The notes below the pieces were generated by a model, which was not told the DNA's origin, searched no databases, and saw nothing but the letters and a program-made list of their open reading frames with translations. From assembly GCA_027459705.1 (NCBI GenBank), contig DAIDHM010000062.1, forward strand, positions 1 through 45,216: a stretch of 45,216 nt of DNA. The letters are read 5' to 3'. Shown in pieces: positions 31,313 through 36,697 of this stretch; position 1 is the first letter of the stretch, and each line of letters starts with the position of its first letter. Source of the DNA: Ktedonobacteria bacterium. Lineage in GTDB: Bacteria; Chloroflexota; Ktedonobacteria; Ktedonobacterales; JACDGC01. The position numbers and the translations under genes are program-made.

Positions 31313-32563
31313 ATGGGAAAACGCGCATTACTCGTCGGAGTGGATCATTATCCAGGAATGCAGTCGTTGCAGAGCTGTGTCCGCGACACGATGACCCTGC
31401 GGAACTTGCTGCTATTTCACGCGAACCTGGATGTGAATTACGATTGTATCACCTTCCTGGGTATGGACCCTCAATTGGTCACCGCGGCTCATATACAGGA
31501 AAGGATTGTGTTGGGAGCTACGAAATCTGTCGTGCAGCAGGCATTAGCATCCCTATTCCTCTATGATGATACAGTCCTTTTCTATTTCTCGGGCCATGGG
31601 ACCAAAACGGCGAATGGCACCATGATTCTCTTGCCGACTGATCGGGACGGACGCCAGCAGGGAATCTACTTGCAAGAGCTACTTGACATGGCGAACGGGT
31701 CGAACGCGCGCCAGATCGTGTTGATCCTGGACTGTTGTTTTGCGGGGGCGATCGGCGAAGAGTTCATCGATCTCCAACGGATGTGGTTACGGCCTGGGGT
31801 GACCGTCCTGGCGGCGGCGAGTCCTGATCAGTACGCATTTGCGCGCGATGGGCAGAGTGTCTTCACACGTGCCTTGTTGTTGGGCCTAGAAGGTGGAGTC
31901 GCGGATCCCCGTGGTTGGGTGACAGCCGCCGCTCTGTATGCTTTCATCGAACAGTCATTAGGCCCCTGGGAGCAACGGCCAATGTACAAATCTAACGCCA
32001 CCGAGATGCGGCCCATCCGCTATTGCGAGCCGATCGTCAGCGATGATGAACTGAGACTGATTCCTGTGCTTTTCAAGGAATCGACGTGTCTCTTAGACCT
32101 GGATAAATCCTTTGAGCCTACGCAAGTTGATAGTGCAAAGCCGGAGAATGTTGCGATATTTCATGTCTTACGGCGGTTACAATTAGCGCGGATGATTCGG
32201 CCGACCAATCCACGTGAGGATGCGCTGTATTGGACTGCGATGCATCATGAATCCGTACAGTTAACCCCGTTGGGCCAATACTACTGGCAGCTTGCTAAAG
32301 CTGGGAAAATTGGTGGAACACCAGCATTCACAAGGAGGCTAGTCATGAATCACCTGGAACCAGAGAAACTCGCGCAGATTTTCCACGAGACCTACGAGCG
32401 TTTGGCGCCCTACTTCAATTACACAACCCGCAAGGAGACGGCGGTTCCCTGGGCTCAAGTACCAGATACGAACAAACAGTTGATGATTGCGGTTGCTACG
32501 GAAGTGCTGGCTGCTCTGCAACCGGCCGCCACTCCCGATACCCCGACCGCGCCCAGCGCATAA
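31313..32563 (+). CDS. Caspase-like (C14/metacaspase-type) protease
   Basis: A 416-residue protein whose first about 230 residues are a caspase p20-like fold: KRALLVGVDHY first strand, FYFSGHGTK with catalytic H95, and VLILDCCFAGAI with catalytic C142. Next is a middle winged-helix-like stretch (about 265-350; VAIFHVLRRLQLARMIRP). The C-terminal module (about 350-402) has EKLAQIFHETYERL and VPWAQVPDTNKQLMIAVA, a pattern I associate with small stand-alone proteins in phages and actinomycetes (from memory). There is no signal peptide, so it acts inside the cell. Bacterial caspase-like proteases occur in defence and regulated-death modules. It is second in a tight operon (2-base gap) and followed by a hairpin terminator. 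Confidence 0.86.
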   Translation: MGKRALLVGVDHYPGMQSLQSCVRDTMTLRNLLLFHANLDVNYDCITFLGMDPQLVTAAHIQERIVLGATKSVVQQALASLFLYDDTVLFYFSGHGTKTANGTMILLPTDRDGRQQGIYLQELLDMANGSNARQIVLILDCCFAGAIGEEFIDLQRMWLRPGVTVLAAASPDQYAFARDGQSVFTRALLLGLEGGVADPRGWVTAAALYAFIEQSLGPWEQRPMYKSNATEMRPIRYCEPIVSDDELRLIPVLFKESTCLLDLDKSFEPTQVDSAKPENVAIFHVLRRLQLARMIRPTNPREDALYWTAMHHESVQLTPLGQYYWQLAKAGKIGGTPAFTRRLVMNHLEPEKLAQIFHETYERLAPYFNYTTRKETAVPWAQVPDTNKQLMIAVATEVLAALQPAATPDTPTAPSA

Positions 32564-34385: not shown

Positions 34386-34685
34386 TTATTCGCCGGCCAG
34401 CACAGCCAACACGTCCGACTCGCGAAGGACCAACAGATCCTCGCCTTCGAACTTGAATTCCGTGCCGCCGTATTTGGCGTAAAGAACCTTATCGCCGACC
34501 TTCAACTCCATCGCGGAGCGATCGCCGGAATCGAGCAACTTACCAGGACCTACGGCGATGATAACACCTTCCTGGGGTTTCTCTTTCGCGGTATCCGGGA
34601 TGATGATCCCGCCTTTGCTGACTTCTTCCTTGGCGCTGGGCTTCACGACCACACGGTCTGCCACTGGCCGAATCTTGCTTGCCAC
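34386..34685 (-). CDS. groES: Co-chaperonin GroES (10 kDa)
   Basis: A 99-residue co-chaperonin that caps GroEL. It begins ASKIRPVADRVVVKPSAKEE, has the mobile loop with GGIIIPDTAKEKPQ, then GDKVLYAKYGGTEFK and ends DVLAVLAGE. The GTG at 34685 is chosen because AAGGAG stands 8 bases upstream and the length then matches the family (E. coli 97). An ATG at 34745 would add 20 Lys/Ser/Gly-rich residues and has only AGAAGA before it; it remains possible. No CIRCE operator (TTAGCACTC-N9-GAGTGCTAA) was found upstream, so HrcA control is not evident. Confidence 0.95.
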   Translation of the reverse strand: MASKIRPVADRVVVKPSAKEEVSKGGIIIPDTAKEKPQEGVIIAVGPGKLLDSGDRSAMELKVGDKVLYAKYGGTEFKFEGEDLLVLRESDVLAVLAGE

Positions 34686-34924
34686 GCTTGCTACTCCTTC
34701 TGGTAAGTTTGTTTTACCAGTTGAACCGCTCGCCTTTTTCGGCATATGAATCTTCTCTCTACCACCGGTGTCTACACAGCAGTGTCGTCAGGATCCCATG
34801 CTCATCGGCATTGGGGAGTGCGCTATGCACCACTTGCTCGATGAGCCTGGGCATTATGGATGAGCCACATGCCCGTGTTCCGGAAGAAACTATATCGCAT
34901 TGGGTGTAAGAGGGGCGTTGGAGG

Positions 34925-35247: not shown

Positions 35248-35284
35248 CGGCGGGTTCGTTTGCCCGTAGGAAGGACATGCAACG

Positions 35285-36697
35285 TTGTTTGGACCACATC
35301 TCATCATTGACGGCAGCAAGTGCGATACAGTGAAACTCGGCGATAGACTCCTCATCGAACGCATCCTCACCGATTACCCTCGTGCGATTGGCATGACCCG
35401 CATTGGCGGCCCCTACATGTTTGAATATCAGGCGCCTGACCCGGCCTATTCCGGGGTCTCTGGTCTGGTAGTCATCGCTGAAAGCCACATCGCCATTCAT
35501 ACCTTCCCCGAGCTGGATTACTTTACAATGGACATCTTCTCGTGCAAAAATTTTGACCACGAGGTTGCCATTGCTTACATCCGTGAAGCTCTGGGTGTGC
35601 GCGAAATGGACCGCATGCTTGTCCAACGTGGCCTCTCGTTCCGCGGGCCTCATCATGGCCCCCTGGGCGCGACGGATGAATTGATCTCCGCGGCGGAATC
35701 GCGCAACAATGGTCTAGGGGTGACGATCGGGTCCATACCAACCGATGATCCACTGTACCCCCGGATGGCGGATGTCGGCGCGATGCTCTGGCCAAGTTAT
35801 GGCGCGGTGCCAGATGTCGGCTCATGTGGAACGGTCACGGGTGGTGCTCGTGATGGCGCGGTGGTGACCGCGGCGAACGCCGCGGCCGCAGGTGATGTGG
35901 GTCGTCCTGGCCTCCTCCCCATTCAGCCACTCCAACTCAATCCCACAGCTTCGACGAGTGGAATCATGGACCGGATGCTGGCATTGGGTGGGCAGGGGCG
36001 ACAACTGGGCAAAGCGCTGCAACTCTGGGAAGCCACCGTTCGCGCGGGGAATGCACCGGTCGTCCTGGCTATCGGCGCCGACGTGGTCGCGCAAGGTCTG
36101 CGGGATGTGGTGGCCGATCTCATCCAGCGTGGCCATATCCAGGGTATCATCCTGGAAGATAGTGCCGCGTTCGCGGATGCTTTTGAGTCACTGGGCTACC
36201 GTCACTACCTACGGGAAGACGATGAACTCGCCCCCGCTATCCGTCCAGAAGACGAATCGCAGGCGGCCAGAACCAAAATCACCGCGATGCTTGGCCACCA
36301 TCATAATGCCACCATTCAGCAACTCGCTGATGCATTGGCGCACAATGCGCCGCGGCCGGGCATATTGACGGCGGCGATCGCGGCAGGCATCCCCATTGGA
36401 CTGGCTGGTTCACCAGCGCTTAAAGCCCTGGGGGTGACGTTGTCGGACAATGCCGACATTCTGGATTTGGTGGCACAACCCGAAACGTTGTTGATCGCTT
36501 GCGGCACCCGCGTTGCGATCAACGCTGGACAGGCTCAGACCATCGCCATTGCGGCGCCTACCCAATCATCGGTAGCCGTTGCTCTTACGCTAGACGCACC
36601 AATCGCACTCACTTTGCTAGCGACGGGATTGGTGCAGCGCGTACCACAGCGGCACGTATCGCGATCGAATGCGCGGCAACTTTTGAGTGTGGGTTGA
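35285..36697 (+). CDS. SpeD-like pyruvoyl decarboxylase fused to a degenerate deoxyhypusine-synthase-like domain
   Basis: A 470-residue protein. Residues 1-about 120 are a bacterial class 1b AdoMet decarboxylase: the self-cleavage site is Glu66-Ser67 in AESHIAIHTFPE, where Ser becomes the pyruvoyl group, and the proton-donor Cys follows in MDIFSCKNFD. AdoMet decarboxylation feeds spermidine synthesis; some SpeD relatives act on ornithine or arginine instead. Residues about 120-210 are a linker. Residues about 215-470 match the order of deoxyhypusine-synthase-like proteins: GGQGRQLGKALQLW, GLRDVVADLIQRG, ESLGYRHY, ILTAAIAAGIPI, ending VALTLDAPIALTLLATGL. The stretch where DHS carries its WGK catalytic lysine is missing, so this half looks inactive. 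No aminopropyltransferase gene is nearby. A hairpin terminator follows. Confidence 0.82.
   Translation: MFGPHLIIDGSKCDTVKLGDRLLIERILTDYPRAIGMTRIGGPYMFEYQAPDPAYSGVSGLVVIAESHIAIHTFPELDYFTMDIFSCKNFDHEVAIAYIREALGVREMDRMLVQRGLSFRGPHHGPLGATDELISAAESRNNGLGVTIGSIPTDDPLYPRMADVGAMLWPSYGAVPDVGSCGTVTGGARDGAVVTAANAAAAGDVGRPGLLPIQPLQLNPTASTSGIMDRMLALGGQGRQLGKALQLWEATVRAGNAPVVLAIGADVVAQGLRDVVADLIQRGHIQGIILEDSAAFADAFESLGYRHYLREDDELAPAIRPEDESQAARTKITAMLGHHHNATIQQLADALAHNAPRPGILTAAIAAGIPIGLAGSPALKALGVTLSDNADILDLVAQPETLLIACGTRVAINAGQAQTIAIAAPTQSSVAVALTLDAPIALTLLATGLVQRVPQRHVSRSNARQLLSVG

Follow-up and report, generated by a model that had tools for sequence, protein, structure and literature searches.

An open reading frame at positions 35285-36697 (+) of the window, the 45,216-nucleotide stretch of Ktedonobacteria DNA that we analysed, was found to encode a SpeD-type pyruvoyl decarboxylase fused to a domain of the deoxyhypusine synthase (DHS) fold that has lost the DHS catalytic site. 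The domains are known; their fusion is a new conserved arrangement that is apparently undescribed. The protein may well be a pyruvoyl arginine (or ornithine) decarboxylase that feeds homospermidine synthesis and keeps its DHS domain as an assembly module, an explanation to which we give an even chance.

Organization of the fused gene

The gene is a single intact ORF of 470 codons, recognized from its open frame and its homologues, with a TTG start codon and no internal stop. A Shine-Dalgarno-like AGGA was read from the sequence at 35272-35275 (+), nine bases 5′ of the TTG. The start position is kept among the homologues, in which TTG, GTG or ATG precedes FGPHL. The product comprises a SpeD (AdoMet_dc) domain identified with PF02675 and TIGR03330 (residues 1-118; 35285-35638, +), a linker (residues 119-215; 35639-35929, +), and a DHS domain with approximate boundaries, delimited from PF01916, an AlphaFold (AF2) model, Foldseek and a residue comparison (residues 216-456; 35930-36652, +). 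The linker had pLDDT values mostly below 50 and contains two conserved islands of invariant alignment columns, GPHHG..GATD..I (residues 121-134; window positions 35645-35686) and M.WP.YG..PD.G (residues 167-179; 35783-35821). These islands might be docking or metal sites.

The divergent neighbour of the fused gene is groES (34386-34745, −), an ORF named from a reading of its translation and placed outside the system. Neighbours vary between genomes (groES/groEL in the window, an lspA-like gene in L131, TetR-like and MFS genes in L127), and no recurrent operon partner was seen. There was no Rfam riboswitch match within the window and no CIRCE near the fused gene, and promoter and terminator scans near the gene gave results at chance level. 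Adjoining groEL, the window encodes a caspase-domain protein (Peptidase_C14, 50 bits) at 31313-32563 (+).

Distribution of the fusion

A contig search with the window protein revealed 13 fused homologues with 46-66% identity over the alignment. We surveyed 47 genomes of the class with PF02675 and PF01916, requiring both domains in one frame. The same two-domain order was present in 15 genomes, all from three related families of soil bacteria: 6 of 6 in family f1 (that of the window), 1 of 1 in f2, 8 of 11 in f3, and 0 of 29 in f4. None of the fused copies has a stop or frameshift. Because the same ORF occurs in 15 genomes, one of them a single-contig chromosome, a sequencing or assembly error that joined separate genes was rejected. 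When the survey was widened to 400 genomes drawn from the phylum, no other SpeD-DHS frame was recognizable among the matches listed, a list that ended before the weakest; the only other long frame opened in this draw, of 508 codons, was a BpsA-SpeD fusion. Three f3 genomes (G007 and G008, both of genus g6, and G016) carry SpeY without any SpeD, which reflects either loss or incomplete assemblies (58-85% complete).

The SpeD domain and its processing residues

Pfam AdoMet_dc (PF02675) matched residues 5-116 (3.1e-26, 92.3 bits; cut-off 25) over profile positions 1-107 of 107; the SpeD fold, of class 1b, was thus covered over the whole domain. Alignment with T. maritima S63 placed the self-cleavage site, at which Ser would be converted to the pyruvoyl group, at Glu66-Ser67 (35480-35485, +). 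His72 (35498-35500, +) and Cys87 (35543-35545, +) align with T. maritima H68 and C83, respectively. Ser67, His72 and Cys87 were unchanged in all 14 aligned fused sequences, and the intact pyruvoyl self-cleavage site reported in the initial annotation was thereby confirmed. Ser, His and Cys have processing and catalytic roles in SpeD (PMC10407285). In view of the invariance of these residues, the pyruvoyl group should form, and the protein would self-cleave to give a pyruvoyl-dependent amino-acid decarboxylase.

Substrate of the decarboxylase

The SpeD domain scored 79.7 bits against TIGR03330, just above the AdoMet decarboxylase (AdoMetDC) cut-off of 75.65, as expected if it were a true AdoMetDC. 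However, canonical SpeD of the phylum reaches 150 on this profile. Position 76, the equivalent of T. maritima Glu72 (which we take to contact the AdoMet ribose), is Ala in 5 of 14 homologues. No true spermidine synthase was found in the window's own genome, where the sole confident PF01564 match was a membrane MFS_SpdSyn protein. The best spermidine synthase match in the fusion genomes scored ≤63 bits, versus 149-166 for true speE in genera of f4. A SpeD tree was built without three very long branches; an earlier tree that included them was unreliable. A 99/97 branch separated the fused domain from T. maritima AdoMetDC; neither other placements (AU p 0.21-0.32) nor forced grouping with proven AdoMetDC (p 0.23) was rejected. 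Overall, AdoMet is an improbable substrate, and automatic naming of the fused group as AdoMetDC, which follows from its passing TIGR03330, is probably wrong.

The only SpeD in the window's own genome is the fused one. The genome also encodes an intact SpeY (PRK00770, 494 bits; cut-off 450), which was assigned to homospermidine synthesis and whose catalytic residues are kept in the alignment. Of the 15 fusion genomes, 12 have SpeY, and the other three are 79-89% complete. Each of the 12 fusion genomes tested for agmatinase (TIGR01230), the window's own among them, had a match exceeding the cut-off. No alanine-racemase-fold decarboxylase was found in the window's own genome, and neither agmatine deiminase nor AAT-fold decarboxylase was found in any fusion genome at the thresholds used. 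The sister family f4 has a cluster, on one strand, of speY, the agmatinase gene speB and a speD that stands alone (L121); Li et al. (2023, PMC10407285) found this arrangement with SpeD proteins that decarboxylate arginine.

The initial annotation had allowed for a substrate other than AdoMet, and genome context points to arginine or ornithine rather than AdoMet. Arginine is probably the substrate. The closest neighbours of the fused domain in the SpeD tree were second SpeDs from other Chloroflexota. One protein of this kind, in Anaerolinea, has been proven to decarboxylate ornithine (PMC10407285), so an ornithine route is possible, and the arginase gene rocF in the window's own genome leaves this route open. 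Four residues, Gln, Thr, Phe and Tyr, are diagnostic of SpeDC, the SpeD-type ornithine decarboxylase (PMC10407285). Ornithine supplied through arginase is a distinctly weaker candidate than arginine. The fused protein would thus most likely convert arginine to agmatine, and less likely ornithine to putrescine. Agmatine would be converted to putrescine by agmatinase (SpeB), and putrescine to homospermidine by the separate intact SpeY.

Some genomes of the order have a second PRK00770-type SpeY: L124:2835-3929 (−), L123:7415-8536 (+) and L125:2782-3894 (+). In L123, agmatinase is encoded ~3.4 kb upstream of the second SpeY. SpeY ORFs of the family (e.g., in L066, L074 and L078) have histidine-rich N-termini.

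The C-terminal half has the DHS fold

The Pfam DS (deoxyhypusine synthase) profile PF01916 matched residues 227-312 (4.8e-10, 39.6 bits; cut-off 27) over profile positions 2-87 of 288, and the DHS sequence signal in the window's copy weakens past residue 312. In less decayed relatives, the match covered profile positions 3-285 of 288 (L024 from G013, 91 bits) or 2-217 (L030 from G001, 147 bits). These matches indicate that the C-terminal half is DHS over its whole length, beyond its start. NCBIfam agreed with Pfam, and the best DHS subfamily for the fused protein was PRK00805. The whole-protein score was far lower than the equivalog cut-offs of PRK00770 and PRK00805.

An AF2 model of the window's DHS domain alone had a mean pLDDT of 81.8 and pTM of 0.81. 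When this model was searched against the PDB with Foldseek, the top matches were deoxyhypusine synthases (Pyrococcus 7cmc: TM 0.76, probability 1.00); T. brucei DHS (6dft_J) was also among the structural matches. The fold search showed that the Rossmann-like fold is kept. A full-length model again gave DHS, with the SpeD half poorly predicted and the linker mostly unstructured. The C-terminal ~255 residues (residues 216-470), described at first as DHS-like from their motif order, therefore prove to be so by HMM, AlphaFold model and fold search, and structure prediction did not yield another fold.

Two other identities were rejected. An ArgZ-like C-terminal domain gave a Pfam E value of 0.083 and a fold TM of 0.62, versus 0.76 for DHS. 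Nor was an origin by recent copying of the genome's own SpeY supported: the best subfamily of the domain is PRK00805, and the domain falls outside the SpeY clade.

Loss of the DHS active site

The fused proteins were aligned with human DHS, SpeY and other DHS proteins, and the numbering was anchored on the SWGK lysine 329; a K329A DHS entry in the fold-search list also marks this catalytic lysine. The K329 equivalent (WGK motif) was missing in 12 of 12 fused proteins aligned. The stretch that should carry it had been noted as absent from the window's protein, and this absence extends to all fused homologues aligned. Equivalents of W327 and E323, together with the loop holding Y305 to D313, were likewise missing from every one of these proteins, and the NAD glycines (GGG 282-284) and D238 were mostly replaced. 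In human DHS, we take the NAD contacts to be D238, GGG 282-284 and T308-D313, and the polyamine contacts to be H288, Y305, D316, E323 and W327. Residues of both sets (for NAD, D238, GGG 282-284 and loop 308-313; for polyamine, H288, Y305, D316, E323 and W327) are replaced or deleted in the fused proteins. Because both the catalytic lysine and the NAD site are lost, the domain is judged not to be a member of the DHS enzyme family. It is predicted from these residues to be catalytically dead, so that the whole would work like a pseudoenzyme fusion.

These losses also bear on the proposal that the domain is a sensor of homospermidine, of other polyamines or of a nucleotide that exerts feedback on the decarboxylase. 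In its favour, the Rossmann-like fold is retained, and a pathway could sensibly be controlled by feedback at its entry. However, the DHS residues that contact NAD and polyamine are replaced or deleted, with the window's family most affected; the loss of ligand residues makes ligand sensing unlikely, and we regard a sensor as a remote prospect. The earlier suggestion that the fold binds a polyamine or NAD is not supported by the same residues. Ligand binding at a new site of the domain is possible.

Loss of the site is graded among families: greatest in f1, less in f3, and least in f2. Loop deletions are heaviest in f1, and PF01916 scores fall from 147 bits in f2 to roughly 80-90 in several genomes of f3 and 31-40 in f1. 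The lysine is already absent from the best-preserved copy, that of G001. The window's DHS domain retains NPTAS.SG (219-226), WE (248-249), G.R (271-273) and a terminal helix ending in QR (451-452); one D and one H in mid-domain are also conserved. The conserved residues belong to the core and helices rather than to ligand sites, and they look structural.

Selection on the DHS domain

Ten of the closer pairs of genomes gave dN/dS values of 0.08-0.36 (DHS domain) and 0.01-0.11 (SpeD domain). Intact SpeY had dN/dS of 0.04-0.13 in comparable pairs; values for the DHS domain were 1.5-6 times those of SpeY. Values were higher, at 0.47 and 0.71, in two deep comparisons involving the f2 copy, where such estimates are less reliable. 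dN/dS of 0.08-0.36 despite graded decay indicates that the DHS part is retained under selection. Constraint on the domain is relaxed but held, and the domain is under purifying selection.

The graded decay from f2 through f3 to f1, in both PF01916 score and loop deletions, is consistent with descent from a bifunctional decarboxylase and homospermidine or deoxyhypusine synthase, whose second activity was lost when SpeY took over and whose remnant is now decaying. However, dN/dS is well below 1 in the ten closer pairs, the frame is open in every copy, residues are invariant across families, and a confident fold is predicted even for the window's shortened copy. We consider such a remnant improbable. 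Slow loss could nevertheless be reflected in the elevated dN/dS of the domain and in the window's own copy, which is among the most shortened DHS domains.

Assembly as the probable retained function

DHS forms homotetramers whose active sites lie at the subunit interfaces (PMC3663545). Given this tetrameric architecture, assembly is the likeliest retained function of the C-terminal domain. The domain would be a DHS descendant that no longer catalyses or holds NAD in the usual way, kept since its fold still assembles. Its most probable role is to bring decarboxylase units together in a larger oligomer, either with itself or with SpeY; we infer this oligomerization from the ancestral fold. In the initial annotation, the domain was proposed to regulate the decarboxylase or to anchor a larger complex. 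Anchoring or assembly fits the evidence best, and regulation through a ligand was not upheld, the contact residues having been lost.

Assembly with SpeY could take a more specific form, in which the DHS domain enters mixed tetramers with SpeY, activates or controls it, and tethers the first step of the pathway to the last. Most fusion genomes also carry intact SpeY, as noted above, and the structural matches include T. brucei DHS; pairing with a dead paralogue in a heterotetramer raises the activity of trypanosome DHS 3000-fold (PMC3663545). However, the catalytic residues of SpeY are intact, and f4, G007, G008 and G016 have SpeY but not the fusion, so SpeY need not depend on activation. Furthermore, the derivation of the domain from the PRK00805 subfamily, outside the SpeY clade, weakens the case for mixed assembly. 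Activation or control of SpeY by the fused protein is therefore unlikely.

Comparison with known systems

The trypanosomatid prozyme is likewise a dead DHS fold whose genome also encodes an active homologue of DHS (PMC3663545). The window's own genome has a pairing of this type, with the dead DHS homologue alongside a SpeY whose catalytic residues suggest that it is active. In contrast to the fused domain, the prozyme is a separate protein and a duplicate of its partner; it activates that partner, an effect that is conjectural for the fused domain. The fused domain is joined to a different enzyme and comes from another DHS subfamily. It shares fold and motif order with SpeY (PRK00770) and the PRK00805 DHS group, from which it differs in having no catalytic lysine and in the loss of NAD-site residues.

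SpeDA (a pyruvoyl arginine decarboxylase) and SpeDC (a pyruvoyl ornithine decarboxylase), both derived from SpeD (Li et al. 2023, PMC10407285), resemble the fused protein in SpeD fold, processing residues, absence of spermidine synthase from the genome, and the company of speY and speB. However, the proteins described there have a single domain or are SpeD-SpeDC fusions, and none has a DHS domain. The Victivallis vadensis SpeD-SpeDC fusion and eukaryotic class 2 AdoMetDC (PMC10407285) also combine a pyruvoyl decarboxylase with an inactive domain; in those, the inactive half is a second copy of SpeD, whereas in the fused protein it is an unrelated fold. No description of a SpeD-DHS fusion was found in the literature searched (open-licence papers only), in agreement with the first impression that no protein of this arrangement had been described.

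Trypanosomatids have been described as the sole species that use a dead-partner strategy for both DHS and AdoMetDC (PMC3663545). The fusion of a dead DHS domain to a decarboxylase, kept across three bacterial families, would provide a tractable, independent case of the dead-partner idea, and copies at different stages of decay could be used to test which DHS features a pseudoenzyme must keep. We suggest tentatively, as a conjecture that is more doubtful than the assembly module itself, that a bacterial DHS-fold pseudoenzyme builds a homospermidine-making complex with SpeY and is an independent, one-polypeptide counterpart of the trypanosome dead-paralogue strategy.

Other SpeD fusions

A different SpeD fusion was observed at L129:525-2048 (+) in G230, where a 507-aa protein has BpsA_C (228 bits, residues 98-341) followed by AdoMet_dc (376-479). 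This fusion of BpsA (branched-chain polyamine synthase) with SpeD belongs to another Chloroflexota family, and a frame in G289 is equally long (508 codons). A Pelagibacteraceae contig (L016:5959-7026, +) encodes a SpeD-spermidine synthase fusion, with AdoMet_dc at residues 17-119 and Spermine_synth at 180-350.
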